Source of the DNA: a virus
Length of the DNA: 64,000 nt
IMG/VR virus record: IMGVR_UViG_3300034019_000950
Location: 1-64,000 of that record
Strand: one strand, 5' to 3'
Shown here: one piece after another, positions 5,245-25,504 of the stretch
Layout of the letters: every line of letters starts with the position of its first letter
Position numbering within the stretch: the stretch's first letter is position 1
Notes under the pieces: model-generated
The model's input: the letters and a program-made list of their open reading frames with translations, nothing else
Told to the model about the DNA's origin: nothing
Database searches by the model: none
Program-made: the position numbers and the translations under genes

Positions 5245-5313
5245 CGTGCAGCACGTTGGCGCATCTTCCCTTGATGAACCAAACTTTTTTGCAAGTTAGG
5301 CTGCGCGCAACCC

Positions 5314-5343: not shown

Positions 5344-5378
5344 TACAGTGCAACGGGCAACGCCCAAGGAGAGCAAAG

Positions 5379-6506
5379 GTGACCACCACCACCATTCACA
5401 ACGCGCACGCCGACCTCACCACCCTTCGCGTCCAGATGAAAAACGCGTTCGTCGCCCGCGACGCCGAGATTGACGGGCTGCTGCTCGCGCTGCTGGCCCG
5501 CACGCACGTTCTGCTGCTGGGGCCTCCCGGAACCGCCAAGTCCCTGGTGACGCAGGTGTTCGCCAGCGCCCTGGGCGGCGACTACTTCCAGCGCCTGCTG
5601 ACCGCCTTCACCGCGCCCGAGGAGCTGTTCGGCCCGTATGACCTCAGCGCCCTCGACGCGGGCCGCTACGAGCGCGCTGTGCAGGGCTACCTGCCGACTG
5701 CCACCGTGGCGTTCTGCGACGAGGTGTTCAAGGCCAACAGTGCGATCCTCAACAGCCTGCTCACCGTGCTGAACGAGCGCCAGTTCGACAACGGCACCAC
5801 CCGGATGCAGCTGCCTCTGGAGCTGTGCGTCGGCGCCAGCAACGAGTACCCCGAGGACGCCAGCTTGGAGGCGCTCTACGACCGCTTCACCCTGCGCTAC
5901 TGGACGCAGTACGTGCCCACCCGCGCCGGGCGGCTCGCGCTGCTGACCGCCGCCGACCCCGCGCAGGTGGTGACGGCCAAGCTGGCGCCCGACGCGGTGC
6001 AGGTGCTGCAGCAGGCCGTTCGTGACGTGGTGGTGCCTCAGAGCGTTCTTGTCCTGCTGTGTGACGTCGCGGACAAGCTGGCTCAGGACAACGGCGTGGT
6101 GGTGAGCGACCGTCGCCTGCGCGGAATGGTGCGGCTGCTGCAGGCCAGCGCCGTTCTGGACGGGCGCGTCACCGTCACCGCGCGCGACTTGCTCGTGCTC
6201 GCGGACAGCGTGTGGCACCGTCACGATCAGCGCCCCGCCGTGCTCGCCACGGTGCTGTCGGTCGCCGCCCCAAAGCTCGCGGCCGCAATGAAACTGTCCG
6301 ACAGCGCGCGCGAGATCTACGACGCGGTCAAGGACGTCAGCAGCGACGGTGCTCGCGCCCTGCAGCGCATCAAGGCCGTTGAGGCGGAGCTGGTCAACAT
6401 GGGTCTTGACGACACCGACGTTCTCAACGCACACCTGTCCGTCGTCGAGCTGCGCAAGGGGCTGGCGCGTCGCTTCATGTCTGCCAGCGGGCTGGGCAAC
6501 GTGTAG
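5379..6506 (+). CDS. MoxR-family AAA+ ATPase
   Basis: A 375-residue AAA+ ATPase of the MoxR group, which acts as a chaperone-like remodelling enzyme together with VWA-domain proteins. Walker A is GPPGTAKS at residues 48-55; a Walker B CDE (ATVAFCDEVFKAN) lies near 107; sensor regions and a C-terminal lid follow. The GTG at 5379 is the best start: it follows AAGGAG at 5366-5371 and promoter site 3. A longer frame from 5256 would place its start upstream of the promoter. The next gene encodes a VWA protein, the usual partner (compare RavA-ViaA). What the pair remodels in the phage cycle is unknown. Confidence 0.9.
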   Translation: MTTTTIHNAHADLTTLRVQMKNAFVARDAEIDGLLLALLARTHVLLLGPPGTAKSLVTQVFASALGGDYFQRLLTAFTAPEELFGPYDLSALDAGRYERAVQGYLPTATVAFCDEVFKANSAILNSLLTVLNERQFDNGTTRMQLPLELCVGASNEYPEDASLEALYDRFTLRYWTQYVPTRAGRLALLTAADPAQVVTAKLAPDAVQVLQQAVRDVVVPQSVLVLLCDVADKLAQDNGVVVSDRRLRGMVRLLQASAVLDGRVTVTARDLLVLADSVWHRHDQRPAVLATVLSVAAPKLAAAMKLSDSAREIYDAVKDVSSDGARALQRIKAVEAELVNMGLDDTDVLNAHLSVVELRKGLARRFMSASGLGNV

Positions 6507-6527
6507 TCCTCCGCACCGCTCTGTCTG

Positions 6528-6559
6528 CACCCCCGCATCACCCTGCGGGGGTGTTTTCG
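6528..6559 (+). terminator. Intrinsic terminator after MoxR
   Basis: The arms CACCCCCGCA (6528-6537) and TGCGGGGGTG (6544-6553) form a perfect 10-bp stem, followed by TTTTCGT. Confidence 0.85.
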
Positions 6560-6583
6560 TCCAAAAAACCTTGCTGGCACAGC

Positions 6584-6613
6584 TTGCACTGCTAACCGGG
6601 CGCATGTTAGGTG
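6584..6613 (+). promoter_or_regulatory. Early-type promoter with dyad (site 4)
   Basis: The -35 is TTGCAC (6584-6589), the spacer 18 bases and the -10 TAGGTG (6608-6613) after TGT. The dyad CTAAC-N9-GTTAG (6592-6610) is perfect. Confidence 0.75.
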
Positions 6614-6638
6614 TACCTTGCACCGCAAGGGGGGCACA

Positions 6639-8102
6639 ATGGCCAACTTCACCACCACGAAACACGTCAATGCCACGCGCGATGTCTCGCGCTGGGCCGA
6701 CTACCTGTTCACCAGCCGCGCGTCCGCCAGCGCAAGTCTGTCATCGGCTCGTCGTGAGCTCAGCTTCGCATACAAGGCGCAGGGCGGCGGCTCCGACGTT
6801 GAGGATCGTCGCCTTGACGATCTCGCCACTGCAACGGCTCGCGAGGTGTTCGCCGGCCTTTACGACGAGAGCGAGGCGACCGTTCTCGACAAGCCCGCGC
6901 CCGACACTGAGCTGGTCACCCGCGTCCACGGGCAGCTGCAGCAGCTGCCCGAGTATGCTCAGCTGCAGGGGCAGGTTGCCGGCGATCCTGACCTCGCCGC
7001 TATCGCCACGGCTCGCCTTCTTTCCTCTGTTGCGGCTGCGCTGCCCAAAATGGCAAGTGAGGAACGGAAAAAGGCCCAGCAGGAAGCCAGCGGTGCACCT
7101 GTTCGCGGCCCGGCCGCCGACGCTGACGGCGTGCTTCGTCGCATGTTGCGCACGGCCTGCAATGACGCAGCGCAGGCTGCCGCCGAGGCGGCGGAAGGCA
7201 TGGAAGGGCTGGCCCCCGGCCTTGGCGAAGCTCCCGCTCAACATGCGCAACATGACGACGGCCGCATCAAGCTTGCGGAGCGTGTCAGCTCCGACGCGCG
7301 CCTGCGTCGGGTGATGAAGCTGGCGGGCCGCCTGCGCCGCCTTGCCAGCGACGGGCGCAAGGTGCGCGACGAGCTGGGCGCGGACACGCTGGTCGGCACG
7401 ACCATCGGCGGCGACCTTCCGCGCGCCCTGCCCACTGAGCTCGGCCTTTTGCGTCACGCTCGCCTGCGTCGCGTGCAGCTTGCCAAGCTGGCCGATCGCC
7501 GCCTGCAGCAGTATCACGTGGTCGGCAATATCCCCAAAGGTCGCGGTCCCATCATCGTTCTGCTTGACGAGTCCGGCAGCATGGAAGGGGATCGTAACCT
7601 GTGGGCTGCGGCCGTCGCGCTCGCCTGTATCGGCACCGCAGCCCGCGAGCGCCGCGCCTGCACGGTCATTGGATTCAATGGGTCGGTTCGCTACATCGTC
7701 CGCCTTGACACTCACGGCAAGGCGTGGCGTCACGACACCAGCAACGTCGCCAACGCGACTGCAATGGGCGCTTGTGCGGATCTCGCCCTGCACGTGGCCA
7801 GCAGCCGCCCCGATGGCGGCACGCAGTTCGCGCCACCCCTGCAGGCCGCACTGGATCTTGAGGACGGCGTGACCCGCGAGCGTGCCGACCTCGTGCTGGT
7901 CACCGACGGCCATGCCGAGGCGCCGGTTGACATTTTGCAGCGGCTGCAGCAAGCGAAACACGACGGGCTGCGTGTTTTCGGCCTGACTGTCGGTGGCGGG
8001 AGCCTTGGCGCTGCGGTGCGCAAGATCGCAGACCATATCGTTGACCTCGACGACGCAGCGGGGCGCAACGACGGCAAGGAAGTCGCCGGCGCCATTCCGT
8101 AG
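6639..8102 (+). CDS. VWA-domain protein, MoxR partner
   Basis: A 487-residue protein with a C-terminal von Willebrand factor A domain (about residues 300-487). The MIDAS motif DESGS sits at residues 310-314, with a later T and a VTDGH segment typical of the metal site. The N-terminal 290 residues are helical and charged, as in ViaA/CoxE-type partners of MoxR ATPases. The ATG at 6639 follows AAGGGGGG; an in-frame ATG at 6618 lies too close to the -10 of site 4. The protein probably couples to the 5379 ATPase to act on a shared target. Its own promoter and terminator isolate it from the neighbours. Confidence 0.88.
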   Translation: MANFTTTKHVNATRDVSRWADYLFTSRASASASLSSARRELSFAYKAQGGGSDVEDRRLDDLATATAREVFAGLYDESEATVLDKPAPDTELVTRVHGQLQQLPEYAQLQGQVAGDPDLAAIATARLLSSVAAALPKMASEERKKAQQEASGAPVRGPAADADGVLRRMLRTACNDAAQAAAEAAEGMEGLAPGLGEAPAQHAQHDDGRIKLAERVSSDARLRRVMKLAGRLRRLASDGRKVRDELGADTLVGTTIGGDLPRALPTELGLLRHARLRRVQLAKLADRRLQQYHVVGNIPKGRGPIIVLLDESGSMEGDRNLWAAAVALACIGTAARERRACTVIGFNGSVRYIVRLDTHGKAWRHDTSNVANATAMGACADLALHVASSRPDGGTQFAPPLQAALDLEDGVTRERADLVLVTDGHAEAPVDILQRLQQAKHDGLRVFGLTVGGGSLGAAVRKIADHIVDLDDAAGRNDGKEVAGAIP

Positions 8103-10381: not shown

Positions 10382-10624
10382 GAAGTCGTCTTTTTGACGA
10401 TTTGTGTATGTATAGGGGTGGTGGACGGGCTGCTACAAGGCCCGTGCGGGGGCTATGGGGCGCTGCTGGCCCATAGGGCGGGCTGCAGGCCCTGCAAGCC
10501 GGTATGCAGGCCACAAGGGGGCATATTGCGCACCGTTTAGGGCCTGCGGGGGCCTGCGGGGGCCTGCTTACCCCATACAACAGCGCGTATGGGTTAGGGG
10601 GTGGATGAAAATGGTGAGGTAGAC
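10382..10624. other. Intergenic GC repeats and small inverted repeats
   Basis: There is no gene here. The decamer GGCCTGCGGG is repeated at 10541-10570 (third copy degenerate). Short inverted repeats include CTATGGG/CCCATAG near 10453-10480 and CCCATAC/GTATGGG at 10571-10592. A weak hairpin TCGTC/GACGA just after the spanin-like gene may slow transcription. Confidence 0.55.
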
Positions 10625-11332
10625 GTGCGTTTCCTGCTGAGTGGTGGTTCTGGACGTCTTGGAAGGCTCTTTGTGCCGTGGTTGGAACAACAGGGCCACG
10701 AAGCATTCGCTCCTTCACGTGCTGCCTTGGATTGGTCGTGTCCAGATAGTGTGATGGCCGCCGTCACCGCCCAAAAACCCGACCGCATCGTGATGCTGGC
10801 GGCATGGACGGACGTGAGCGGAGCACAGGCACAGCCAGCCGCCTGCGTGCGGGACACGGTGCTGACAACACAGCATGCAATCGCCGCCGCGAAAGCCAAC
10901 AGTGTCTCGTTACTGTACGTGAGCACTGACTACGTGCACGCAGTTCTCCGACAGGACACGGCTGGCGTTTATGCAGCTGCAAAGCTCGTCGCAGAGCAGA
11001 TGGTTCTACTTGCGAACGGACACGTGGCCCGCGTTGCCTTCACCACCCCGGAACAAGTGGCTGAGTGGAGATGGGTCAACGACTACAGCAAGGCCAACAG
11101 GTGCTGGGTTGAGGATCTGATCCCAATGCTCGGCCTCTGGGCGTCCTTTCCAACTCACCAGCTACAACAGCTGGTGAACCTGGGTGGCCCACACCCTGTC
11201 ACGCCTGCGGAGCTTCTGGCAAGCCGCCATCCTGATCATCCAGCACTGAGGCGCGTGATTGCTTCGCAAGCGGAAGCAATCGCAATCGGTCTGCCAGCAC
11301 AGCCTCACGATACTTGTTGGAGGAAACTATAA
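10625..11332 (+). CDS. RmlD-like dTDP-4-dehydrorhamnose reductase (SDR fold)
   Basis: A 235-residue extended-SDR protein. The Rossmann motif GGSGRLG lies at about residues 6-12, followed by the YVSTDYVH strand and the catalytic YAAAK. RmlD reduces dTDP-4-keto-6-deoxy-sugars to finish dTDP-L-rhamnose. The GTG at 10625 is preferred: it follows GGTGAGG and places the first beta strand at the N-terminus as in the family; a GTG at 10601 is also in frame. The protein is shorter than cellular RmlD (about 290), with a reduced C-terminal substrate domain. RmlC-like and RmlB-like genes elsewhere in the window support a sugar pathway. Confidence 0.8.
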   Translation: MRFLLSGGSGRLGRLFVPWLEQQGHEAFAPSRAALDWSCPDSVMAAVTAQKPDRIVMLAAWTDVSGAQAQPAACVRDTVLTTQHAIAAAKANSVSLLYVSTDYVHAVLRQDTAGVYAAAKLVAEQMVLLANGHVARVAFTTPEQVAEWRWVNDYSKANRCWVEDLIPMLGLWASFPTHQLQQLVNLGGPHPVTPAELLASRHPDHPALRRVIASQAEAIAIGLPAQPHDTCWRKL

Positions 11333-12344: not shown

Positions 12345-12767
12345 GTGAGCAAAAACACTGATCTGGTCGTGTTGAGGCACCCTGTCCTTGTCATCGCGCA
12401 AGTGCTGCAAGCTTGCGCACGACTGCAAGATCTGGCTGGATGGTGGGCGCCCGTTGGATCTCTCTTAGAGGGCGCACGACTGGCGCTTGTCGGCCTTGAC
12501 GGGCTGGATGAAGTGCAGATGCGTCGCCTTTTGCGCTGGGCAGCACGATGGGAAGCAATGGATCCTCGATTGCGAGCTTTGTATGCTCAACATCAGTCCG
12601 CCATTGCTGTTGATGTTGCGCTGTGGCACGTGCTTGACCAGCGAAGCGGACAGCCGAGCGGGGTTGTGTACGGGAAGCTACGCGACCTGTGGGTGAAGGT
12701 ATACGGATACTCACCAAGCATTGAGCTGGTCCCTACAATCACCCTAAACATCAAGGACCAACCGTGA
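12345..12767 (+). CDS. Hypothetical protein (140 aa)
   Basis: A helical soluble protein with no recognised motif. GTG 12345 lies after GGAG (12332-12335). An ATG at 12312 would leave almost no leader after the -10 at 12296-12301, and 12285 is inside the promoter. Its stop overlaps the RmlC-like start (GTGA), so the two are one transcript. Confidence 0.6.
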   Translation: MSKNTDLVVLRHPVLVIAQVLQACARLQDLAGWWAPVGSLLEGARLALVGLDGLDEVQMRRLLRWAARWEAMDPRLRALYAQHQSAIAVDVALWHVLDQRSGQPSGVVYGKLRDLWVKVYGYSPSIELVPTITLNIKDQP

Positions 12768-13405
12768 CAACCGACGAGCAAGACATTCACTTGATGTATC
12801 AAGACGCCGGCTACCTGCGCTGGGCCAGCGTTCCGCAGCAGGTGCAGCCGCCGTCTTTCCGCACGCTGGGCGGAACCGAGCCGTGGCACGCTCGTCCAAT
12901 CGAGGTGCGCCCGCTACGCTGGCACGTGGATGCGCGGGGCGCCTTGGTGGAGCTGCATCGCACAAGCTGGCACCGAGAGCGTCTGCCGGGCGAGGTGCAG
13001 CTGCCGCGTCGTGGCGAAGTGGCACAGATCTACGTCAGCACCACAGCCGAGGGTGTAGTCAAGGGCTGGCACCTGCACGCGCAGCAGTCCGATCGCTTCA
13101 CGGTGCTGCGCGGCGCCGTGCTGCTGGCCCTGTACGACTTGCGCGCTCACAATCGCGCCAGCCGGCTTGGTGATGAACTGCCGCCGGTACATGAAGTGAT
13201 GCTTCATGCAGAGCGCAATGCTGCTCAGGTCATTGTTCCCCCCGGCTGGGCGCATGGATGGATGGCACTGCCCGGCTACGGTGAGGCGCACGTGCTGAAC
13301 GCCGTTTCGCACGAGTATGACGGAACCGACGAGTGGCGACGCAATGCACACGCTGGTCCGGCCACGGGCAAAGACTATGACTGGCGTCGTTCTCGTGATG
13401 GATAG
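12764..13405 (+). CDS. RmlC-like dTDP-4-dehydrorhamnose 3,5-epimerase
   Basis: A 213-residue cupin-fold protein resembling RmlC, which epimerises dTDP-4-keto-6-deoxyglucose at C3 and C5. Diagnostic segments are KGWHLHAQQSDRFTVLRG (catalytic His region; active-site R/K-G-W-H) near residue 100, LALYDLR and IVPPGWAHGW near residue 160. The RmlC core is preceded by about 60 residues of unknown function. It overlaps the upstream gene by GTGA. With the RmlD-like and RmlB-like genes it suggests that the phage makes or remodels a dTDP-deoxysugar. Confidence 0.8.
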   Translation: MTTDEQDIHLMYQDAGYLRWASVPQQVQPPSFRTLGGTEPWHARPIEVRPLRWHVDARGALVELHRTSWHRERLPGEVQLPRRGEVAQIYVSTTAEGVVKGWHLHAQQSDRFTVLRGAVLLALYDLRAHNRASRLGDELPPVHEVMLHAERNAAQVIVPPGWAHGWMALPGYGEAHVLNAVSHEYDGTDEWRRNAHAGPATGKDYDWRRSRDG

Positions 13406-13497: not shown

Positions 13498-13971
13498 ATG
13501 AGTGAGCATAGTGAAGCCTGGGGATGGGTCCTGCAACATGCACAGGTGGTGAAGTGCGCCGCGTGGCGCATGGCCAGCGGCACCGGCTTGGATGCCGACG
13601 ACCTGCACAGCGCACTGCTGGTGCGGCTGGTGGAGCGGTGGCACGTGTACGACAACACGGTCGCCAAGCCTTCCACATGGGTCTGGTGGCAGGCGCGCGC
13701 AGTTCGTAGTGCGATGATCGACCAGCGACGTCGTCGGATGCAGGAGGACGAGCTGGTAGATGCGTCTCATCCCGTGGTTGCTCCCACCGCTGAGGCGTGG
13801 GTGCTGGCGGCACAGGCCCGGAAGATTGCAGAGCCGGACGAGTGGCAGGCTGCTCTTGCGTATGCGGAAGGGCTTGTCGGCGAAGAACTTGGTCAAGCGT
13901 GCGGGTGCGCGCCGTTCAGCGCCCGTCGTCGTGTGGCGCGCCTGCGCGCGCGTATGGAGGGTGCAGCATGA
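13498..13971 (+). CDS. Sigma-70-like (ECF-type) protein
   Basis: A 157-residue protein with the layout of a small sigma factor. Residues 30-80 match region 2: the D-A-D-D-L-H-S-A helix, then a Trp-rich WVWWQARAVRSAMIDQRRR, the -10 recognition helix followed by a basic patch. Residues 115-155 could be a minimal region 4 ending in a basic helix. ATG follows GGAGG. It could redirect host RNA polymerase to phage promoters, possibly those carrying TGTTAnnnT or the late TGATACAGT. The stop overlaps the HTH gene. Sequence similarity is moderate; a DNA-binding protein of related fold is the alternative. Confidence 0.7.
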   Translation: MSEHSEAWGWVLQHAQVVKCAAWRMASGTGLDADDLHSALLVRLVERWHVYDNTVAKPSTWVWWQARAVRSAMIDQRRRRMQEDELVDASHPVVAPTAEAWVLAAQARKIAEPDEWQAALAYAEGLVGEELGQACGCAPFSARRRVARLRARMEGAA

Positions 13972-14300
13972 GTGATGTAGCGGAAGTGGAGCAGGAAGAA
14001 GAAGTGCACGAGGCGCAGCTGCTACGTGAACTGCAAGCGGGGCAAGACCTTCCACTTGTGGAAGTCTTTGCAGAGCTGGCAGCAGAGTGGCATCGTCGCA
14101 ACCCCGGCACCCGGTCGAAAGACCTTGCCGCGCTACTCGGGGTGCGCCCGCAGCTGTGCTCGCAGTGGAAAACGGGCACGGACGATAGGCGCCCGCCTTG
14201 GAGCGCGATCGTTCTACTGTGCCACCTGTGCAAGCGTCAGGTTGTCATTCGACCTGATGGGCTGCACCTTGCACAGCTGCGACGTCAGCGAACCGCGTGA
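13968..14300 (+). CDS. Helix-turn-helix DNA-binding protein
   Basis: A 110-residue protein with an acidic N-terminal helix and a Cro/CI-type helix-turn-helix at about residues 45-75 (SKDLAALLGVRPQLCSQWKT). It starts with ATGA on the stop of the sigma-like gene. It is the best candidate in the window for a regulator of the repeated TAAC-N9-GTTA dyads, by position and fold only. A longer frame upstream to 13797 overlaps the sigma-like gene and is rejected. Confidence 0.75.
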   Translation: MSDVAEVEQEEEVHEAQLLRELQAGQDLPLVEVFAELAAEWHRRNPGTRSKDLAALLGVRPQLCSQWKTGTDDRRPPWSAIVLLCHLCKRQVVIRPDGLHLAQLRRQRTA

Positions 14301-14833
14301 GTCACGCAAACAGAGGCCGTGCATGGGAACAGCTATTGGAGCTGTGGCACGCACGGTATGAAGCAAGGGGCGAAGCAGTGGTGTTGCGGACACCACCTCC
14401 GATGCGCATCCTTCGCTCAATGTCTGGCGGTCAGTTCGTGGCGGTTTATGCCACGGAAGGTCCGCCAGACTACGTTTTGCTGTCCGATGGCCACGCCATT
14501 GCAGCAGAGGCCAAAGACTGTCTGGCCGATCGCTGGCAGCTCAACAAGCTGCACGCTCATCAGGCCAGACGTCTGACAGCATGGGAAGCACAGGGCGGGC
14601 TTGGGGTCGTGTTGCTACGACATCAGCCGAGTGACACACGATGGGTGCTCCCCTGGTTGCGCCTTGGTCCAGTATGGGCACGATGGCACGAGGCTGCCGA
14701 GGCTGGACGCGAACTGCCGCGTGGTAGTGCAAGCATCAGCCTTCCGCAGCTGCACGATCTGGGCTTGCCATTCTGCCGTATTGGCGGACATCTGCCTGTG
14801 ATTGTAGGGCAGAACAGCAAAAAGTTATGGTAG
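14297..14833 (+). CDS. RecU-like Holliday junction resolvase
   Basis: A 178-residue PD-(D/E)xK nuclease. NRGRAWEQLL at residues 5-14 matches the N-terminal motif of RecU. The catalytic residues are D58 (PPDYVLL), E71 and K73 (AEAKD), followed by the H-x-x-Q helix and the GGLGVVLLR strand characteristic of the family. It resolves four-way junctions during recombination and before packaging. It overlaps the HTH gene by GTGA. Confidence 0.85.
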   Translation: MSHANRGRAWEQLLELWHARYEARGEAVVLRTPPPMRILRSMSGGQFVAVYATEGPPDYVLLSDGHAIAAEAKDCLADRWQLNKLHAHQARRLTAWEAQGGLGVVLLRHQPSDTRWVLPWLRLGPVWARWHEAAEAGRELPRGSASISLPQLHDLGLPFCRIGGHLPVIVGQNSKKLW

Positions 14834-14889: not shown

Positions 14890-15375
14890 ATGGCAACAAA
14901 GAGCAACAAGACCAACGTCACTATCCTTCAACGCGGCGGCAAAAAGCATCACGACGTGCTGGAAAGCGCATCTCTTTTCTTCATGCGCGAGCTTATGAAT
15001 GCCGAGCTTGCGTGCATCCTGAACCTCCGCATTGAGGTGAGGGCTACGAAGATGCAACGGGGCACGGTCGCTATCTCATACCTGCCCGTAAACAGCAACG
15101 AGCCGTGCACGGACTTCACCATCATCCTGCATAGGGATCGCAGGTTGATTGATCAGATACAAGACCTGGCTCACGAGCTGGTTCACGTACAACAATCCGT
15201 TAGCGGCCGGTTGCAATACCACAGGTCGAATGACAGCAAGCTGTATGCGTGGTGGGAAGGAGTAGATATGGGCGCGGTAGAGGATATTCCATACTTCAGT
15301 CGCCCGTGGGAGGTAGAGGCGCGGTGTTTGGAAGTGGCGCTAATGAACAAGCTGCGACAGGCTGTCAGCAGCTGA
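14890..15375 (+). CDS. Zincin-like metallopeptidase
   Basis: A 161-residue protein with the zinc protease motif HELVH at residues 95-99 and a downstream Glu-containing segment PWEVEA at 139-144, which could supply the third zinc ligand. Proteins of this layout are common small phage zincins related in plan to SprT/IrrE. ATG 14890 follows GGAG. The target is unknown; host regulators are a reasonable guess. It runs into the convergent primase-like gene, overlapping by 11 bases. Confidence 0.75.
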   Translation: MATKSNKTNVTILQRGGKKHHDVLESASLFFMRELMNAELACILNLRIEVRATKMQRGTVAISYLPVNSNEPCTDFTIILHRDRRLIDQIQDLAHELVHVQQSVSGRLQYHRSNDSKLYAWWEGVDMGAVEDIPYFSRPWEVEARCLEVALMNKLRQAVSS

Positions 15376-16867
15376 CGTGCAGCAGGTGTGCACGGTAAGG
15401 CGTACCGTCCACGAGCCTCCAGCCGGGCCGCCTTCCAAAACGACCAGCCGCGCAGGCGCTGGCGTCGGCGTGGCCGCCCTGTGCGCCATGCGCGCGCGCC
15501 GCAACGAGCACCCGCGCGCCCAGCGCAGCGTGCCACGCGCGCACCGCAGGCTGCTGGTGCCACGTGGCCGCGCTGTGACGCGCATAGCGAAGCTCAACCC
15601 ACACTTGCAGCCCGACAGGGCCAGTGCGGACAACCGCACACCTGCCGCTTGCCTCTCCATCCATCACCACTGACGCTGCCAGTGCTTCCGCAAGCCCTGT
15701 AACGTCGTCTGGCAGCACAATATCGTCAATGTCAACCAACACCCAGTCCTGGCATCGCGGCGCTTGCGGAGTATTCCAACCGCCATGAGGCGCGCGGCCC
15801 ATTGTGGAGACGCTAAGCAGACGATCTGGCAATACAGCACGAGCTGGCAGACCATCACCGAACACCGCAGCATCATGGGCGCGCTGTGCGGCTGCCGGCG
15901 TCCGGCTAAGCCTCTCCGCACGCTGCAAGGCCACCAAAACGCCGCCCGTGGCCCGATTGCCGGGTGTTCGCCATGTAGTCGCACGGCCAGAGGCCGATAT
16001 AGAGGCACGCAGCAGCGCGATGGTGTGCCCGCTGCGCACAGGGCCGCTCAACACACACCCCCCAACAGGGGCGCTGTAGCCCGTAAGGGGGGCCGGGCCA
16101 CCCGTGGCAGAGGCAGCGGCCCGCGCAGGGCCGGGGGCCAGTATGGGGGGGCTTTTATTGTGCCGGTAAGGTTGCGATGCCGTGCTGGTGCGGCTTGCAG
16201 GCAACAGGCGCACCTTATGTCCGGCGGCCAGCCACGCCCAACGGGGCGCGGTTCCATCGACTTGCTCACATGCCATGCACATCGCCCCACCATTCGCCCA
16301 AAGCACAAGTGACGGCGTGTTGTCGTCGTGCAGGGGGCAACGTATGGTCGCGGTGCGTGACCCGGCCCGTAGACGAGCCAGCGCATCTGCTGCTTCTACT
16401 TCCAAGTCGGCAGACTGGCATACGCTGGCGCCAGACGCTGCTCGAAGTCCGGCAATCTGCCATCCTTCCAGCACAATATGCCGACCGTATCGGCTTCCCC
16501 ACCGGATGCGTCGTAACTGCGCGCCAAGGACGCGCGCGTGCTCCGTTGCGACCTCTGCCCATCCGACCAAGTGTTGAGCGAAACGCCATGCCAGCGTCGC
16601 GGCCCAGCGGGTACAGCCCTCAACCGTTGCCACGTAGCTTGGACAACTTTCTACATACCACCTACCACACGGAAGGCGCTGCGCTTGACGCAGCTGAACA
16701 GACCAGCCGTACATCGCGGCCCGTAGACCGACGCCAAGCGCACCCACACTTGATGCTGCAGCGCGAAGTGCCGCTTCCAAGCGACGACCCGCCAGTGCAG
16801 CAGGATCAACCGGCAATGCAAGACTCGACACCACACTTGCTGTGTGATAGGGTTTGGCTGTCGCCAT
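15365..16867 (-). CDS. Zinc-finger / AEP-like primase, stand-alone
   Basis: A 500-residue protein, the only large - strand gene among the + strand replication genes. A CHC2-like zinc site lies at residues 177-200 (RCPLHDD, then CMAC). The C-terminal third has features of archaeo-eukaryotic primases: VLVDIDD at 376-382 as the metal D-x-D, RTGPVGLQVWVEL (414-426) where the family often has His (here Gln), and RFGRRPGW (476-483) as the R-x-PG segment. I infer a primase or prim-pol. The window also carries a T7-type primase-helicase, so this would be a second priming enzyme. The Gln substitution means activity is uncertain. Confidence 0.65.
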   Translation of the reverse strand: MATAKPYHTASVVSSLALPVDPAALAGRRLEAALRAAASSVGALGVGLRAAMYGWSVQLRQAQRLPCGRWYVESCPSYVATVEGCTRWAATLAWRFAQHLVGWAEVATEHARVLGAQLRRIRWGSRYGRHIVLEGWQIAGLRAASGASVCQSADLEVEAADALARLRAGSRTATIRCPLHDDNTPSLVLWANGGAMCMACEQVDGTAPRWAWLAAGHKVRLLPASRTSTASQPYRHNKSPPILAPGPARAAASATGGPAPLTGYSAPVGGCVLSGPVRSGHTIALLRASISASGRATTWRTPGNRATGGVLVALQRAERLSRTPAAAQRAHDAAVFGDGLPARAVLPDRLLSVSTMGRAPHGGWNTPQAPRCQDWVLVDIDDIVLPDDVTGLAEALAASVVMDGEASGRCAVVRTGPVGLQVWVELRYARHSAATWHQQPAVRAWHAALGARVLVAARAHGAQGGHADASACAAGRFGRRPGWRLVDGTPYRAHLLHVSC

Positions 16868-16976: not shown

Positions 16977-17040
16977 GGGGCCGGCTGCGCATCTCCCTGC
17001 GCTGCTGACACTGTGCTCCTTGCTGTACGCAGCCGGCCCC
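16977..17040. repeat. 13-bp perfect inverted repeat between divergent genes
   Basis: GGGGCCGGCTGCG (16977-16989) is matched exactly by its complement at 17028-17040, with a 38-base spacer. It lies in the 189-base gap between the - strand primase-like gene and the + strand helicase, a likely place for divergent control or a replication signal. Confidence 0.75.
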
Positions 17041-17056
17041 CTTTCCCACCACGACA

Positions 17057-18535
17057 ATGCCAAACTCCGCACACATCGCAGCAACACTGGCCCTCCACTC
17101 TCAGGGCCTTCCGTTGCGGTTCGTCCAAGCTGTGCAGGCAATGGTGACTGTTCAGAACCCGGAGCGCGAGCAGATGGCTCGTGCTGGGGTGTCCGCATCA
17201 CACCTGCCCGCCCTGCTGCCGTTGTGGGAGCAGCGAGCAGACTGGCTCCATGTTCCACGTGGAGCAGTGAAGATGGTACGGCAGCAAGCGGCGCTGCACG
17301 GTGCAGAACTGCAGTGGACAAGCTCGGTTGTGAGCCGAGCATTCCGCCGTGTTCCTATCGAAAAGCTACCTGTCAACCTGCGCCCGTACCAACGCGAAGC
17401 TGTGGAAGCGATGTTGTTCGGTGTGCAAGGTCACGTCGTTGCTCCATGCGGAGCAGGCAAGACTGTGATTGCGAGCAGCGCACTGGTTGCCTCTGGCGAG
17501 CCTGGGCTGGTGCTGGTCCACACGCACGATCTGCTTGATCAGTGGACAAAGCTTCTGCGAAGCTGGGGATGCCGAGTACGTGTAGTGTCTGGCGGGCGGT
17601 CGCGTTTCAGCCCCCTTGGATGGGGGCAGGATGGACAGCCAGAGATTGCGGTTGCAATGGTGCAAACACTGGTTCGCGCTGGCGCAGCAGCAGACCCATT
17701 GTTGGGAAGTGCTGGAGCGGTGGTGATGGACGAGTGTCATCATGCGCCAGCCTCTACGTTCCGTTCACTGATGAACAAAGTGCCTGCTCGCCATAGGTGG
17801 GGTGTCACCGCCACGCCCGAGCGCGGCGACGGGATGCGCGTCATGCTGGAGCTGGCGCTGGGCGAGCAGCTGTACGAGATCACAACCCAGCAGCTGCTGG
17901 CGGGTGGCTACCTCATGCAGCCAATCATCCTGCCAGTGTTCAGTGCTGCACGGGTTGATCTGCAAGCTTGCATGACCTCAAAGGGTCAGGTTGTGATTGC
18001 GCGTGCACTGCAGCAGCTGGTAGACGACCCGGAAAGACACGAGCTACTACTGCAGCTGGCAACGATCGCCGCAAGTGTTGGTAGAACAACCCTGCTATTG
18101 GTCCCGCGTGTTGAGCAAGCTCAGCAGCTTGCTGCCCATCTTCGCGCACGTGGCGTCAGCGCGGCTGATGCCACCAGTGCGACAGGGAAGGAAGCAAGAG
18201 CATCGCAACTTCGCCAACTTCGCGCACGACAGCTGCAAGTGCTGGTTGCAACGCAGCTGGCAGACGAGGGACTGGACGTGCCGGTGCTGGACTGCGTGAT
18301 CGTGGCGAGCACCGGGCGAGCGGCAGGGCGAGCGGTGCAGCGCATCGGGCGAGTGATGCGCACGGCGGACGGCAAGGCACAGCCCGTGGTCGTGGACGTA
18401 GTGGACCCGACGCCGTTCCGTGGCCAGTGGCGTGCGCGGGAACAGGCGTATCGGGATGCTCTGGGATTACAGGTCCCAGCGCCAGTGGCGAGGAACAATG
18501 GGCCAGATGCGCTCCGTCGTGCGCTGGGGTGGTAG
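17057..18535 (+). CDS. SF2 DNA helicase (XPB/UvsW-like)
   Basis: A 492-residue superfamily 2 helicase. Walker A is APCGAGKT (about residue 130), motif II is DECHH (DEAH-type), and motif III is the GVTATPERGDG segment. Motif VI QRIGRVMR lies near residue 438. The layout is that of XPB/RadD/UvsW-type helicases that remodel forks and recombination intermediates. It sits with a RecU-like resolvase, RecB/Cas4-like nuclease and Sak4-like annealing protein, forming a recombination set. The ribosome site before ATG 17057 is weak. Confidence 0.88.
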   Translation: MPNSAHIAATLALHSQGLPLRFVQAVQAMVTVQNPEREQMARAGVSASHLPALLPLWEQRADWLHVPRGAVKMVRQQAALHGAELQWTSSVVSRAFRRVPIEKLPVNLRPYQREAVEAMLFGVQGHVVAPCGAGKTVIASSALVASGEPGLVLVHTHDLLDQWTKLLRSWGCRVRVVSGGRSRFSPLGWGQDGQPEIAVAMVQTLVRAGAAADPLLGSAGAVVMDECHHAPASTFRSLMNKVPARHRWGVTATPERGDGMRVMLELALGEQLYEITTQQLLAGGYLMQPIILPVFSAARVDLQACMTSKGQVVIARALQQLVDDPERHELLLQLATIAASVGRTTLLLVPRVEQAQQLAAHLRARGVSAADATSATGKEARASQLRQLRARQLQVLVATQLADEGLDVPVLDCVIVASTGRAAGRAVQRIGRVMRTADGKAQPVVVDVVDPTPFRGQWRAREQAYRDALGLQVPAPVARNNGPDALRRALGW

Positions 18536-18619: not shown

Positions 18620-20047
18620 GTGGCTCAACGTGTCAAACGACAGCTGCAGCGGTTTAGGGCGGCGGCAACGCTTGCCCCCCGCTATGAGAGTGGCGTGCTG
18701 GGGCTTCCGCCCGGCGCAATGGTGTTGACGAACAGCGAGCGCAAGTCGGCGTGGTGCCCGCGTCGGTGGTGGTACGAGTACGGCACCGGCCTGCGCGGCG
18801 AAGCCAGCGGCGCGATGCGGTTCGGCAGCGCCTACCATGCCGTCATGGAGCGCGTGCTCGGCTGGCACCAGCACCACGACGGGGAGCTGTTCCCTGTGGA
18901 GGGGCTGGACCGCTGCCTGCACTGCGGCGGCGCCGACAGCGCGTGCCCGCTGTGCTTCGGCACGGGGCTGGGCGCAGTGGAATACGTGGCGCAGCAGCTG
19001 CGGGCCACGCCCGAGGTGTACGACCCTGACGAGGGAGGCGTGGAGGGCGAGGTGGACCGCCTGCGCCGCGCCGTAAACGGATGGCTTCACGTGTACGGCC
19101 AGGGGATGCGCGACGACTGGCAGGTGTTGGCAACGGAGCTGCCTGTGGCGGCGCCGATCACCAGCCCGCGCACGGGCGAGCACTATCGCAGCCGCGTGCC
19201 GGTGGTGACGACGCAGGATGGATGGCGGCTGGCCGATGCTGGTGACACTGCTACGCAGGTCCAAGAAGTGGTGCTGCCCTGGTATCAGCTTGCACAGCTT
19301 GACGCTGTGGTGCTCAACCGTCGTAGCGGCAACCTGTGGCTGTGGGAAACCAAGACCAGCGCCAGCCCGGCCACCTATGGTGAGAACCTGGGCCTCGACA
19401 CTCAGCTTCCCGGCTACCTGCGCGCCCTGTGGTATCTCACGGGCACGGGCCGCTGGGGCGATGGCCGGCAGGTGGAGGGCTACGTGTGGGACGTGGCCAG
19501 CAGCGGGCACCAGCGCGACCCGAAGCGGCTGGCCAGCGGCAAGCTGAGCACCGACAAGCGCCAGCGGGTGCCCAGCTGGGTGATGGATGCGGTGCTCGCA
19601 ACCGAGGACGCGGCCCGCTACAAGCCGGACGAGCTGCAGGCGCTGCGGGATCTGCTGCAGCACCTGCGCGAAAGCGTGGACGGCAGCCTGTACCACCGCG
19701 AGTTCGGTCGCTACCTGCCCGAGCAGCTGCGACGGTACGAGGTGGAGCTGTATGCCGAGGCGGTGCGGCTGTCGGGCTGGCGGCGCGCGGTTGTCGGCAC
19801 CGCTACGGGTATCGGTGGCACGGTAGCCGATGATGAAAGTGTGGCTGAGCAGTGGCCGCGCGTGCCGCTGTGCCGGACGCCGGGTGGCAGCTGCCCGTTC
19901 ACCGGCATCTGTCAGCAAGACAGTGCAGAGGGCCGTGCGGTGTTTGAGCGGCGCCCGTCAGTGCGCTGGCTCACGGCAAACGCGGTGAAGAAACTCAACG
20001 AGCAAGCCGCAAAAGAGGCGGCAGGAGGTGTGGAATGTCCGTTCTGA
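18620..20047 (+). CDS. Cas4/RecB-like PD-(D/E)xK nuclease with zinc insertion
   Basis: A 475-residue exonuclease of the Cas4/AddB-RecB type. The N-terminal Cys (SAWCPRRWWYEY), FGSAYH, the catalytic LDAVVLN and LWLWETKTS, and the C-terminal CPFTGIC give the pattern of an Fe-S nuclease with four cysteines. Between FGSAYH and the catalytic core there is an inserted CLHCGGADSACPLC motif (about residue 98), a DnaJ-type zinc knuckle that I do not know from Cas4. The GTG start follows AGGAGG. The context is replication and recombination, not CRISPR. Confidence 0.85.
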   Translation: MAQRVKRQLQRFRAAATLAPRYESGVLGLPPGAMVLTNSERKSAWCPRRWWYEYGTGLRGEASGAMRFGSAYHAVMERVLGWHQHHDGELFPVEGLDRCLHCGGADSACPLCFGTGLGAVEYVAQQLRATPEVYDPDEGGVEGEVDRLRRAVNGWLHVYGQGMRDDWQVLATELPVAAPITSPRTGEHYRSRVPVVTTQDGWRLADAGDTATQVQEVVLPWYQLAQLDAVVLNRRSGNLWLWETKTSASPATYGENLGLDTQLPGYLRALWYLTGTGRWGDGRQVEGYVWDVASSGHQRDPKRLASGKLSTDKRQRVPSWVMDAVLATEDAARYKPDELQALRDLLQHLRESVDGSLYHREFGRYLPEQLRRYEVELYAEAVRLSGWRRAVVGTATGIGGTVADDESVAEQWPRVPLCRTPGGSCPFTGICQQDSAEGRAVFERRPSVRWLTANAVKKLNEQAAKEAAGGVECPF

Positions 20048-20856
20048 ACTGGTCCCGTGTGGGTGAGATGCCTGCCGCAGATGTGAAGGTCAAGGCGCTG
20101 CTGTACGGCGATAGCGGCGCGGGAAAGACGCACGCAGCCAGCACTGCGCCGCGCCCGTGCTACCTTCTGACAGAGGCCAACGGCCTGCCGACCATCAAGG
20201 CGGCGAACCCGGACGCCGTGGTGGTGCAGGCGTCTGACATGGATACCGTGCGCGCGTTCTTCAAGGCTGCGCTGGACGGCTCGCTGGCCAAGGAAACCGG
20301 GTGCCAGACCATCGTGCTGGACAGCCTGACCGAGCTGCAGCGTATGCTGCGAGACGAGATCATCGCCAGCCGCAAGGGGCAGCCGGGCGGCGAGTCGTTC
20401 AGCCTGCAGGACTGGGGCACGCTCACCGACCGGATGCGGAAGCTCGTGCGCACGGTGCGCGACCTGCCGTTCCACGTGGTTTGCATCGCGCTGGCGGCCA
20501 GCGACAACGACGAGGGCACCGGGCAGCGGTACACGCAGCCGTCCTTCGATGGCAAGAAGCTGCCCAACGAGATCGCCGGCTACTTCTCGCTTGTCGGGTA
20601 CGTGTACCGCGAGCGTGCCAAGGCCGAGGACGGCACCATCACCGTGCAGCACCGCGTTCTGTTGCAGGGTCCGCCCACGCTGCTGACCAAGGCGTTGCCG
20701 GGTCTTGACCCGGTGGAGCCGCCCAACATCACGGCATGGTTGGCGAAGCTCAACGGTACGGCGACCAGCAGCGTGGATGGTGCACAGGCGCCGACGGCCC
20801 CTCGCGTGGAGGCCCCGGATCCCAATCAGCCGGCCCGTCGTCGGCGCACGGCTTAG
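20035..20856 (+). CDS. Sak4-like RecA-fold ATPase (AAA_24)
   Basis: A 273-residue P-loop ATPase. Walker A GDSGAGKT is at residues 25-32 and the Walker B-like IVLDSLTELQ near residue 100; the C-terminus is Pro-rich. This is the pattern of phage Sak4-type single-strand annealing/recombinase ATPases (AAA_24). These work with the phage SSB, which is the next gene here. The ATG overlaps the nuclease gene by 13 bases with GGAGG in front. Confidence 0.85.
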   Translation: MSVLNWSRVGEMPAADVKVKALLYGDSGAGKTHAASTAPRPCYLLTEANGLPTIKAANPDAVVVQASDMDTVRAFFKAALDGSLAKETGCQTIVLDSLTELQRMLRDEIIASRKGQPGGESFSLQDWGTLTDRMRKLVRTVRDLPFHVVCIALAASDNDEGTGQRYTQPSFDGKKLPNEIAGYFSLVGYVYRERAKAEDGTITVQHRVLLQGPPTLLTKALPGLDPVEPPNITAWLAKLNGTATSSVDGAQAPTAPRVEAPDPNQPARRRRTA

Positions 20857-20892: not shown

Positions 20893-21453
20893 ATGTCTTT
20901 CATGGTGGATCCCAGCGCGCCTGCGACTGGTGGTGGTGGTGGCAAGCGGCGCCCCGACGTCCGGCCCGGTCGCAAGCTGGTCTGGTGCGCTGACATCGAG
21001 TACGGCAAGAGCAACGCCGGCAACGACAAGATTGACACCCGCTGGTGCGTGGTGGACGACCCCGAGGGTAGCGGCGCCGACGTGCGCGGTCTGTTCTACG
21101 ACACCCTGACCCTGACGCAGCGTGCCGCATGGCGCGTCCAGCAGCTGGCCAAGGCGCTGGGGCAGACCGCGCCCTGGGACGCGCTGGATGGCGAGGCCAC
21201 TTGGTCGGTACTCACCCGGCGCCCGGTGTGGGTGACGCTGGCCGAGGAAACCTACAACGGCAAGACCCGCGTCAAGGTGCAGGAGTTCGGTCACTACGGC
21301 GGCGAAGTGACCGAGGCGATGGAGGACACCATCAACGACGCAGAAAAGTGGTGCCGCGAAGGCAAAAACAAGCGCGCTGCTGCTGGTGGCGGAAGCGGAG
21401 CCGTTGCCCAGGCTGCCGGCGGATACGCGCAGGACGAAGACATCCCGTTCTAA
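20893..21453 (+). CDS. Single-stranded DNA-binding protein with acidic tail
   Basis: A 186-residue protein ending DEDIPF, the acidic-hydrophobic tip that SSBs use to recruit partners. A Gly-rich N-terminus and a Gly/Ala-rich linker flank a beta-rich core (residues 25-150) resembling phage DUF669-type SSBs. Location between Sak4-like ATPase and replication initiator fits. It is followed by a strong hairpin. Confidence 0.8.
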   Translation: MSFMVDPSAPATGGGGGKRRPDVRPGRKLVWCADIEYGKSNAGNDKIDTRWCVVDDPEGSGADVRGLFYDTLTLTQRAAWRVQQLAKALGQTAPWDALDGEATWSVLTRRPVWVTLAEETYNGKTRVKVQEFGHYGGEVTEAMEDTINDAEKWCREGKNKRAAAGGGSGAVAQAAGGYAQDEDIPF

Positions 21454-21525: not shown

Positions 21526-22626
21526 ATGCGCGACGTAGTGTTGCGGGCGACGTGGTGGGACGACGCGAGGGTGCAGCTGCTGGACGCACAGCATCGGATG
21601 GTGCTGCTGTACCTAACTGCGCAGGCCGACAGGGATGGCATCGTGCAGGTGGACAGCGCGCAGCTGGTGCCGCTGCTGCCGCTCGGAGCTGAGCGTCTGG
21701 ACGCGGTGGCCGTGGTGCGCCGGCTGGAGCAGGCGCAGCTGTTGGCGCTGTGGTCGCACAACGACATCATTCGTGGGTCGCAAACATGGGCGTGGCTGGT
21801 GCGGCAGCACGAGGACCAGCCGACTACGGGTGCGCTGGCGCTGCCCCGGTGCAGCGACCGGCCAGCCCCGCCGCGTGACGTGGTGCTGGCACTTCTGGAG
21901 AGGCAGCTGGGGCGCCCGGCCACCGCAGCCGAGGGAAAGCGTGTCAGCCCAAGAAGCTGGGGCCTTGTCAGGCAAGCGGCACCGAGCGCGGCACAGGAAG
22001 TGGAGCGCGTGTGGGCGGCGTGGCGCGACCGGCAGGCACGACCCGGCGCGTGTGTGCTGGCAGAAGCCGTGCAGCGGCAGGTGCGCGCGGCGCTGCAGCA
22101 GGCCACCGCCGATCAGCTGGTTCAGCTGGTGGCGTTCGCCTACGAGGCAGACGAGCCAGCCGCCCGGTTCTGGCGTGGCCAGAACGACCAGCGGCGAACG
22201 TACCTGGGTCTGGACAACCTGCTGCGCCTCGGCAAGCTGGCCGACCGCCTGCAGCTGGTGGAGCAGTGGGCGGCGCGGCAGCAGCCGGCAGCGGGCGGCG
22301 ATGGTACGGACCTGGGGCCGCTGGCAGCGTATCGGCGGCGCGGCCCGGCGGGCACCACCACCAGCCCGGACCCGCGCCCGCCCAGGCTGGCGGCACAGTG
22401 CGCCGCCATGCTGCAGCTGTTCGTGCGGCGCGGCGCCGAGGGTGTGCGCACGCACGAGCTGGCTGAGCTGGCGCTGAAGTATTCCAGCCGTATCAGCGAA
22501 CTGCGCGGGTACGGAGCTGACATTGTGATGGTTGAGCGCAACGAGGACGGTGACAACGTGTACCAACTGATCAACGTTGAGCACGTGGCGCACCTGCTGG
22601 ATGGAGGCGACGGTGGGCTGGATTGA
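21526..22626 (+). CDS. Replication initiator-like protein (winged helix)
   Basis: A 366-residue protein. The N-terminus (ATWWDDARVQLLDAQHRMV and following) resembles phage replisome-organiser N-domains that read origin DNA. The C-terminal 70 residues look like a winged helix (VRTHELAELALKYSSRISEL). The middle is a charged helical linker. Position between SSB and the primase-helicase supports a role as origin binder or helicase loader. ATG 21526 follows GGGAGG; an upstream GTG at 21502 is inferior. Confidence 0.65.
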   Translation: MRDVVLRATWWDDARVQLLDAQHRMVLLYLTAQADRDGIVQVDSAQLVPLLPLGAERLDAVAVVRRLEQAQLLALWSHNDIIRGSQTWAWLVRQHEDQPTTGALALPRCSDRPAPPRDVVLALLERQLGRPATAAEGKRVSPRSWGLVRQAAPSAAQEVERVWAAWRDRQARPGACVLAEAVQRQVRAALQQATADQLVQLVAFAYEADEPAARFWRGQNDQRRTYLGLDNLLRLGKLADRLQLVEQWAARQQPAAGGDGTDLGPLAAYRRRGPAGTTTSPDPRPPRLAAQCAAMLQLFVRRGAEGVRTHELAELALKYSSRISELRGYGADIVMVERNEDGDNVYQLINVEHVAHLLDGGDGGLD

Positions 22627-24658
22627 CGAAGTAAAGGGCGCGGCCACCGTGGCGCAGGCGGCTCAGGCCATCAATCTACGTGTGACACGTGGTTCTGGCT
22701 TGACGCCTTGCCCGTCGTGCAAGGCCGAGCAGCGTGGCACCGATGACCGGCGCGGCCCGCTTGGAGCGCGCACGGACGGCCAAGGCTGGCGGTGCTTCCG
22801 GTGCGATGCGTCGGGCGACGTGCCCGACCTGCTGGCGCTGGGCTGGCTGGGCGGGCGGCTGCGTGAGCTGTCGCCCGAGCAGCGCACGCAGCTACGTGAG
22901 CGGTGCGCGGCGCAGGGCTGGTGCACCACCGACGACGCGGGGCGCACCACAGCCGCTAAGGGCGCGCCTGCGGTGCGTAGGCTGCCCACACCGGCACCGG
23001 CTACACCGGCCGCCGCTGGCGCGCCGGGGCCTGTTACGGGGCCTGCCGGGGTTGTGGCACCCACCCCGCAACAGGGCGGCCCGTTTGGATGGAGGACAGA
23101 CCTACCAGCCGAGTGTGAGGCGGCGCTATGGGCAGACGAGGGTGCACAGGTGCTCGCCTACCTGCAGGGGCGCGGGTTTAGTGACGAGACACTGAAACAC
23201 TGGCGCGTTGGTGCACACTTTTTGCGCGCAGCAGACGGTCGAGTGTTGGAGCAGTACGTGGCGCTGCCGGTGCTGGATGCACAAGGCCAGCCGATGAACA
23301 TGCGCTTCCGTAGCGTTCCAGGCACATGCCTGCGGTGCGGCGGCGCTGGGTGTGATCGCTGCAAGGCCGGGCAGGTGAAAAAGATATACCTACGATGCCC
23401 AGGCGCCACGAGCACACTGTTTGGCATTCATCAACTTGATGGTGATCCAAACAGTGAAGTGATCGTAACCGAGGGTGAGCTGGACGTGCTCGCACTTTGG
23501 CAGTACGGGCTGCGGTCCAACGTGGTCACGGGCACTGCTGGTGCAGGCACGTGGTTGGACGAATGGCTGGACACATTGGAGCCTTACCGCTCCTTTCTAC
23601 TGGCATACGATGCTGATGATGCAGGCGAGCAGGGCGCCCTGGCACTTGCCGCTAAGCTTGGCAGGGAAAGGTGTAGTCGCGTCAAGTTACCGGCAAAGGA
23701 TGCCGCCGACTGCCTTGCAGCGTGCGTTGGTCAGCGGACGGTCCACGCTGCGCTTGATGCCGCAGCGCCGATGCTGGACGTCAAGCTTGTCCGCGTAGAC
23801 GCCTACGCCGATGCAATCGAGCAGCTGGTGCAGCGACCGGCTGAGCTGCGAGGGCTGCCTATTGGAAGCGCCAAGCTGGACGAGGCGCTGGGCGGCTGGC
23901 GTCCCGGCCTTGTGGTTGTGACGGGCGACACGGCAGCCGGCAAGACATCGTGGACGACGTGGGTGGCGCGCGAGCAGGCACTGCGCGGCGTGCCCGTGAT
24001 GCTGACCAGCTTCGAACAGCGCCCAATCGGCACGGTGCAGAAGCTGCTGCGCGCACAGCTGGGTGGCGACTTTTCACATGCAAGCGAGCACGAACGGCGC
24101 GCGGCGATGGCGCAGCTGGGCCAGCTGCCAATCTACGTGCTGGATCACTACGGCGAGCTTGGTGTGGAGCAAGTGCTGGAGGCTGTCGGCTACGCCGTCC
24201 GGCGGCGTGGTGTAAAGATGGCAGTCATTGACCACCTCGGCTTCCTTGTGACAGGGGCAGAGGATGAGCGCAGGGCCATTGAGGATGCTGTGCGCAAGAT
24301 GGCTGTGTTTGCGGTGCAAAGGGAAGTGACGCTGGTTCTAATCTGCCACCCCAACAACCTGTCAGTGACGCAACAGCGCCGCGTCATGCTCGGTGACCTC
24401 AAAGGCGCGAGCGCCATCAGACAGGATGCACACGTAGGCATCGTGGTAGAGCGCATTTTGCCAGGACGGGCAGTGCAGCACCCCGCGACGGCGGTTTACG
24501 TGGACAAGTGCCGATCAGAGTTCGGTCTACAAGGCGCGCGCGTCGTTCAGTTCTATGACCCGGAAAGCTGCGTGTATGCCGACACCTGGGAGGGCACACC
24601 AGCCGGCCGTTCTGGGCGTGGCTCCGCGCTCGCAGCACATACTGACCCGAGCGCATGA
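22613..24658 (+). CDS. DNA primase-helicase (T7 gp4-like)
   Basis: A 681-residue fusion. A zinc site (C33, C36, C61, C64) leads into a Pro-rich linker. An additional DnaJ-like zinc knuckle is inserted at 239-250 (CLRCGGAGCDRC). TOPRIM follows, with TEGE (286-289) and YDADDAG (332-338), then a DnaB-type helicase with Walker A GDTAAGKT (438-445) and Walker B AVIDHLGF (about 537-544). It makes primers and unwinds the fork. The GTG at 22613 follows GGAGG and overlaps the initiator-like gene. The zinc insertion parallels that in the 18620 nuclease. Confidence 0.9.
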   Translation: MGWIDEVKGAATVAQAAQAINLRVTRGSGLTPCPSCKAEQRGTDDRRGPLGARTDGQGWRCFRCDASGDVPDLLALGWLGGRLRELSPEQRTQLRERCAAQGWCTTDDAGRTTAAKGAPAVRRLPTPAPATPAAAGAPGPVTGPAGVVAPTPQQGGPFGWRTDLPAECEAALWADEGAQVLAYLQGRGFSDETLKHWRVGAHFLRAADGRVLEQYVALPVLDAQGQPMNMRFRSVPGTCLRCGGAGCDRCKAGQVKKIYLRCPGATSTLFGIHQLDGDPNSEVIVTEGELDVLALWQYGLRSNVVTGTAGAGTWLDEWLDTLEPYRSFLLAYDADDAGEQGALALAAKLGRERCSRVKLPAKDAADCLAACVGQRTVHAALDAAAPMLDVKLVRVDAYADAIEQLVQRPAELRGLPIGSAKLDEALGGWRPGLVVVTGDTAAGKTSWTTWVAREQALRGVPVMLTSFEQRPIGTVQKLLRAQLGGDFSHASEHERRAAMAQLGQLPIYVLDHYGELGVEQVLEAVGYAVRRRGVKMAVIDHLGFLVTGAEDERRAIEDAVRKMAVFAVQREVTLVLICHPNNLSVTQQRRVMLGDLKGASAIRQDAHVGIVVERILPGRAVQHPATAVYVDKCRSEFGLQGARVVQFYDPESCVYADTWEGTPAGRSGRGSALAAHTDPSA

Positions 24659-24704: not shown

Positions 24705-24734
24705 TTGCAAGCGTAACGGGTTGCATGTTACCCT
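24705..24734 (+). promoter_or_regulatory. Early-type promoter with dyad (site 10)
   Basis: The -35 is TTGCAA (24705-24710), the spacer 18 bases and the -10 TACCCT (24729-24734) after TGT. The dyad GTAAC-N9-GTTAC lies at 24713-24731. It precedes the serine recombinase. Confidence 0.75.
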
Positions 24735-24760
24735 TGTGGTATAGCAATGGGGCCGACATA

Positions 24761-25504
24761 ATGAGCCGCAAGACCAGCAACATCACTCGCACCCGTGCCG
24801 TCGCGTACCTGCGCGTGAGCACAGACAAACAAGCAGATACTGGCGTAAGCCTTGACGCACAGCGCGCCAAGGTGCAGCTCTACGCCGATCTCTACGACGT
24901 GGAGCTGGTCGAGGTGGTGGTGGACGCGGGCGCAAGCGCCAAGACGCTGGAGCGCGAGGGCCTGCAGCGCGCGCTGGCCATGCTGGACAGCGGCAAGGCT
25001 GACGCCCTGCTGGTGTGCAAGCTGGACCGCCTCACGCGCAGCGTGCGCGACCTGGGCGCGCTGCTGGACGGCTGGTTCGGGCGCAAGGACGGCCCGGCGC
25101 TGCTGTCGGTGCAGGAGCAGGTGGACACCCGCACGGCAGGCGGGCGGCTCGTCCTCAACGTGCTGATGTCCGTGGCACAGTGGGAGCGTGAAACCATCGG
25201 AGAGCGCACCAGCGCGGCGATGGCGCACATGAAGGCAGAGGGTGCGTACACGGGCGGGCGCGCGCCCTATGGGTGGCAGGCCGACGCCGAGGGGCAGCTG
25301 CACCCGGTGCCTGCCGAGCAGGCAGCCATCGTGCTGGCGCAGCAGCTGCACGCCGAGGGGAACAGCCTGCGCCGGGTGGGCGCGCTGCTGTTGGAAGCGG
25401 GACACCTGCCCCGTATCGGTAGTGCATGGCACGCGAGCAGCATCAGGGTTGTTCTGGCTGCACGGGTCGCAACGGCTACAAGTGTGGATCAGTCGGCTGC
25501 GTAA
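24761..25504 (+). CDS. Small serine recombinase
   Basis: A 247-residue resolvase/invertase-type protein. The catalytic Ser is S20 in YLRVSTDKQ, with CKLDRLTRS and the ERETIGERT helix typical of the family. A short recombinase-like C-terminal segment (APYGW and the LRRVGALLLEAGHLP helix) binds DNA. It is much shorter than large serine integrases. It may resolve genome dimers, invert a segment or act as a minimal integrase. No paired attachment sites were seen beside it. Confidence 0.85.
   Translation: MSRKTSNITRTRAVAYLRVSTDKQADTGVSLDAQRAKVQLYADLYDVELVEVVVDAGASAKTLEREGLQRALAMLDSGKADALLVCKLDRLTRSVRDLGALLDGWFGRKDGPALLSVQEQVDTRTAGGRLVLNVLMSVAQWERETIGERTSAAMAHMKAEGAYTGGRAPYGWQADAEGQLHPVPAEQAAIVLAQQLHAEGNSLRRVGALLLEAGHLPRIGSAWHASSIRVVLAARVATATSVDQSAA

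Follow-up and report, generated by a model that had tools for sequence, protein, structure and literature searches.

Phages normally carry one priming system. The stretch of DNA analysed here (the window: positions 1 to 64,000, 64,000 nucleotides, of IMG/VR virus record IMGVR_UViG_3300034019_000950) encodes two. One is P0003, a primase-helicase of the T7 gp4 type in which zinc site, TOPRIM and DnaB_C domains are all present. About 6 kb away, on the opposite strand, lies a gene whose product combines a CHC2-type zinc site with the motifs of an AEP primase, a fold unrelated to that of P0003. What would such a phage do with a second primase? The first-pass annotation had recognised an opposite-strand, AEP-type primase beside the TOPRIM enzyme, and the open reading frame, motifs and fold matches bear this out. 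The features discussed are collected in Table 1.

Table 1. Coordinates of the AEP primase gene, its parts and its neighbours in the window
Feature	Position	Strand	Evidence or remark
RecU Holliday junction resolvase	14297..14833	+	
Putative metalloprotease	14890..15375	+	3' end overlaps AEP gene 3' end by 11 bp
CHC2-zinc + AEP primase gene	15365..16867	-	500 aa; ORF, codon-position differences, homologues, model, dN/dS
AEP catalytic domain, residues 265-500	15368..16075	-	AlphaFold2, Foldseek
Motif IV R479-R480-P481-G482	15422..15433	-	Invariant; aligned with RepB' GRLAGF
Motif III D468	15464..15466	-	Invariant; ends strand 463-468
Motif II T-G-P-V-G-L-Q421-V-W, Gln for His	15599..15625	-	Gln invariant; RepB' counterpart TSPxNYQAW
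Motif I D379-I-D381	15725..15733	-	Both Asp invariant in 11 homologues
CHC2-type zinc site C177-x2-H180...C197-x2-C200	16268..16339	-	HMM matches, invariant ligands
N-terminal domain, residues 1-160	16388..16867	-	Conserved pattern and low-confidence helix/strand order
Conserved hairpin, AEP/helicase intergenic region	16977..17040	-	13-bp perfect arms in window, loop core 16996-17018
SF2 (ResIII-type) helicase	17057..18535	+	Adjoins AEP gene in most relatives
PD-(D/E)XK exonuclease	18620..20047	+	
Sak4-like RecA-fold ATPase	20035..20856	+	
Probable SSB	20893..21453	+	
TOPRIM-DnaB primase-helicase P0003, T7 gp4 type	22577..24658	+	Own Cys-rich zinc site, TOPRIM, DnaB domains

The AEP gene is real and kept by purifying selection. 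Between it and its homologue in L003, 98, 88 and 248 differences fall on codon positions 1, 2 and 3, indicating a coding sequence, and comparison with four close relatives gives dN/dS of 0.12-0.19, rough values since dS exceeds 1. The codon-position pattern and dN/dS rule out a chance or antisense frame. We found ten more distinct homologues, all in uncultivated phage contigs, with identities down to about 31%, and the 11 distinct proteins can be aligned over their length. The diverged members were found with a DNA pattern for GRFxRRPGWR and later confirmed and extended; a second pattern scan, on motif II, returned known members and unrelated proteins and nothing else. Neither named phages nor GTDB genomes yielded a homologue at the sensitivity of these scans, which rely on short conserved peptides that diverged genes can escape.

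The alignment of full-length members leaves D379, D381, T415-P417-G419-Q421-W423, D468 and the GRFGRRPGWR segment invariant. D379, D381 and D468 supply the superfamily signatures hhhDhD/E (motif I) and hD/E (motif III). Motif II of the superfamily is sxH or an accepted family-specific substitute; here His itself is absent and Gln421 takes its place. The D-x-D, the Gln for His and the R-x-PG noted in the first-pass annotation are present, and they are invariant in 11 of 11 distinct homologues. Full-length AlphaFold2 prediction with five close relatives gave an unusable model (pLDDT 42), and a confident one was obtained after adding the diverged homologues and folding the domain separately (residues 265-500, 11 sequences, pLDDT 87.3, pTM 0.86). 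In this predicted model an RRM-like catalytic core is preceded by an alpha/beta unit, as is characteristic of the superfamily. From the secondary structure, the first strand of the RRM-like unit would carry D379 and D381 and the third strand Q421, with D468 closing the fourth, as in AEPs.

A Foldseek search against the PDB places LigD polymerase domains at the top (probability 1.00, E 1.4e-3), the mycobacterial enzyme being the best match among solved structures; HSV helicase-primase ranks seventh, and CAPP and yeast primase follow further down. In the BFVD viral library, 'Replication protein B' of a phage ranks first (E 1.9e-4). TM-scores are moderate, at about 0.4-0.47, and no PDB E-value is below 1e-3, so that we base the fold call on fold, motifs and profile agreeing with one another. 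Taken together, the product of 15365-16867 is almost certainly a protein of the AEP superfamily. The first-pass annotation was to be given up if structure prediction lacked AEP similarity, and AlphaFold2 with Foldseek revealed it. Unlike the phage protein, the LigD polymerase domain is part of an end-joining ligase and has no CHC2 module, and its motif II carries His.

The zinc site claimed from the letters is also present, as weak HMM matches and invariant ligands indicate. It has the context C-P-x-H-x-D-x-x-P-S of a CHC2/DnaG-type zinc ribbon, and C177, P178, H180, D182, C197 and C200 are invariant in the full-length alignment; the first spacing is longer in three family members. The DNA primase profile phrog_360 matches weakly (E=1e-3), and PF01807 matches seven of the 11 members (best E=3e-4), with the window protein below its cut-off. 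The AEP domain itself went unrecognised in direct HMM searches of Pfam, PHROGs, NCBIfam and PDB sequences. Ordinary HMM libraries see the zinc site only, and the AEP domain represents a family that current libraries miss. The N-terminal domain has no match among PDB sequences; its conserved pattern and low-confidence model suggest that it is probably a winged-helix DNA-binding domain.

Does the Gln in motif II mean a damaged enzyme? That it replaces the usual His could speak for an inactive relic, or for a regulator that keeps the AEP fold only. We consider this highly improbable, as the acidic triad, the Gln, the Arg and the zinc ligands are invariant in 11 lineages and dN/dS is well below 1. 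PolpTN2-like and RepB'-like AEPs are reported to carry Arg in motif IV and, as a conserved residue, Gln in motif II (Kazlauskas et al., PMC5862659). We gathered RepB' sequences of IncQ plasmids (RSF1010-type) for a profile comparison with the AEP family. The motifs align in register: the acidic motif, R-T-G-P-V-G-L-Q-V-W-V with E-T-S-P-K-N-Y-Q-A-W-V, and GRRPGW with GRLAGF, which sets Q421 and R479 against the motif II Gln and motif IV Arg of RepB'. The score of 31.7, at a match probability of only 28%, compares with a maximum of 25.2 among 200 column shuffles, 17.4 for the reversed profile and 17.6 for an unrelated domain. Gln421 is a feature known from plasmid primases and not a damaged site. 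The suggestion of an altered active site in the first-pass annotation is not supported, the residue being invariant here and typical of RepB'-like and PolpTN2-like AEPs (PMC5862659).

RepB' of the IncQ plasmid RSF1010 (PF16793, PrimPol-PV1) is similar in its AEP core, its acidic motif I, its motif II Gln in a T-S/G-P-x-x-Q-x-W context, its G-R-x-x-G-F/W flange motif and in being a separate priming protein. The phage AEP differs from RepB' by its N-terminal DNA-binding-like domain and its CHC2 zinc site; RepB' lacks a zinc motif and carries a C-terminal helix bundle. Motif I is D-x-D in the phage protein and an adjacent D-D in RepB', and Leu485 replaces the conserved motif IV Asn of PrimPol-PV1. 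These phages, unlike the RepB' system, encode a TOPRIM primase as well. A PF16793 search of three records, one of them the window, gave no match at E<=10, and the Pfam scans gave none either. By the missing Asn, the spacing of motif I, the extra zinc and N-terminal modules and the lack of a PF16793 match, the family is not RepB' proper. PolpTN2 of the Thermococcus plasmid pTN2 and other PrimPol-PV1 members can be likened to it by the motif II Gln and motif IV Arg (PMC5862659), but PolpTN2 differs in lacking a zinc motif and in its PriL-like C-terminal part.

Sequence and predicted structure thus reveal an AEP fold, an intact acidic triad, the motif II Gln and motif IV Arg, the zinc ligands and a conserved linkage to the partner genes. 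We favour, with a chance we put at about even, a catalytically competent Gln-type AEP primase of the initiator type, with the TOPRIM enzyme running the fork. In the survey of relatives proposed in the first-pass annotation, 13 of 14 records have both the AEP and the TOPRIM primase-helicase. The remaining record, L045, is cut off by the contig end just past the neighbouring gene 21502, so an absence of the primase-helicase from L045 cannot be claimed. One homologue of the primase-helicase, in L006 (G005:C1:14894-16894), contains an in-frame TGA, which may be sequencing error, recoding or decay, and in the window a serine recombinase/integrase-like gene (24725-25504, +) adjoins the primase-helicase gene. 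Two unrelated primases in a single phage have been described before, in 0305phi8-36, which has an AEP primase and a DnaG primase (PMC2147016). In that phage the partner of the AEP is an adjacent DnaB helicase, and DnaG stands as a protein of its own, whereas here the TOPRIM primase is fused to the helicase and the AEP adjoins an SF2 helicase.

The order RecU-(AEP)-SF2 helicase-exonuclease-Sak4-SSB-unknown-primase-helicase is largely retained down to 30-40% identity; other genes take the RecU position in three lineages, and in L047 the helicase block lies about 5 kb from the AEP gene. The reversed orientation stressed in the first-pass annotation stands for ten of 11 lineages, in which the AEP gene opposes the direction of the block, and fails for L045, where it is co-directional with its neighbours; the reversal is hence a habit of lineages and not a functional requirement. 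Several other genes lie at lower coordinates on the plus strand. An ATPase gene (phrog_19600) beside one for a VWA-domain protein (5256-8102) is kept in relatives and resembles MoxR-VWA pairs. RmlD-like (10601-11332) and dTDP-4-dehydrorhamnose epimerase-like (12764-13405) genes make sugar decoration possible, and a small protein (13498-13971) carries sigma-70 region 2.

This neighbourhood raises the main rival to the initiator role, namely a primase-polymerase for repair or recombination. Similar to the LigD polymerase domain or PrimPol, it would fill gaps or reprime during recombination-dependent replication, together with the SF2 helicase, exonuclease, Sak4, SSB and RecU. In nearly every lineage the AEP gene has recombination genes around it, the LigD polymerase domain is the nearest solved fold, and a zinc module suits template engagement. 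Nevertheless, the match to LigD is by fold only, the sequence motifs resemble those of RepB', and neither a Ku nor a ligase partner was noted in the scanned genes. We regard such a role as possible but doubtful.

Profiles for DNA_pol_A, DNA_pol3_alpha (DnaE/PolC) and DNA_pol_B found no match in nine records, all of them possibly incomplete. A lack of family A, B and C polymerases could mean that the AEP is itself the main replicative polymerase, a PrimPol replicase for which phage NrS-1, with its PrimPol, sets a precedent (PMC8718748). Many phages, however, use host Pol III, and a self-priming replicase would make the TOPRIM primase redundant; given also that every record may be incomplete, we think this unlikely.

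The special role put forward in the first-pass annotation, on modified templates or in host conflict, receives no support from the compared records. The window does encode a 2-oxoglutarate oxygenase of the TET/JBP family (27750-28655, +; PF12851, E 8e-25) beside a ParB-like gene (27022-27762). This is the sole base-modification gene found and suggests oxidised pyrimidines in the phage DNA, the argument for an enzyme dedicated to such templates. The PHROG name of 27750-28655, DpdA-like, is ruled out by the Pfam TET/JBP match, and a C5-cytosine methyltransferase (PF00145), which could partner the TET-like gene, was found in none of 11 records. The oxygenase itself occurs in only five of the 11 AEP-bearing records, and three records of 75-86 kb lack it. 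Gln is a normal residue in RepB'-type AEPs (PMC5862659), and the compared lineages have the AEP close to their replication and recombination genes. There is very little to recommend a dedicated role of this kind.

Between the start of the AEP gene and that of the helicase gene lies a hairpin. Its 23-nt loop core is identical in five close relatives, in which the arms vary and their pairing is kept. In the arms, 89% of cells are paired, compared with 13-46% for slid partners, and three pairs are changed on both sides; shuffles give this covariation moderate support, from five sequences only. A scan of 2.9 million viral contigs found the loop sequence confined to contigs that carry the AEP gene. 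L041, L043 and L046 have hairpins with different arm and loop sequences at the equivalent place; L044, L045 and L047 showed no recognisable counterpart. An Rfam search gave only a weak chance match, and GC skew tracks gene direction and gives no origin position. Some tens of nucleotides away, towards the AEP start, there is a second small GTGC...GCAC stem. In the RepB' system, ssiA is a hairpin recognised by the primase (PMC4434180). By analogy, the hairpin could be a candidate primase recognition site; it could also be a structured 5' leader of the AEP mRNA.

How might an initiator-type AEP primase act beside P0003? On melted phage DNA, the AEP would make the first primer, or primers for restart, at a defined site chosen by the N-terminal domain and the zinc module; the intergenic hairpin may be this site. 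The host replicative polymerase would extend the primer, a step we propose because the nine searched records yielded no phage polymerase. From there the TOPRIM primase-helicase would take over, driving the fork and priming the lagging strand. The opening step would be analogous to that of RepB', which makes site-specific primers at hairpin ssi sites that are extended by host Pol III (PMC4538821, PMC4434180). A more specific version is rather improbable: that the winged helix, CHC2 zinc and Gln-type AEP modules define a new AEP family of origin-specific initiators that recognise a covarying hairpin next to their own gene and hand over to the TOPRIM primase-helicase, with two primase folds dividing initiation and elongation in a lineage without its own DNA polymerase.

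These phages join an AEP to a CHC2 (DnaG-type) zinc module in a family absent from current libraries, next to a candidate recognition hairpin. Despite deep divergence, both of the unrelated primases have been retained, so that in a defined set of genes one can test why a phage should have two.
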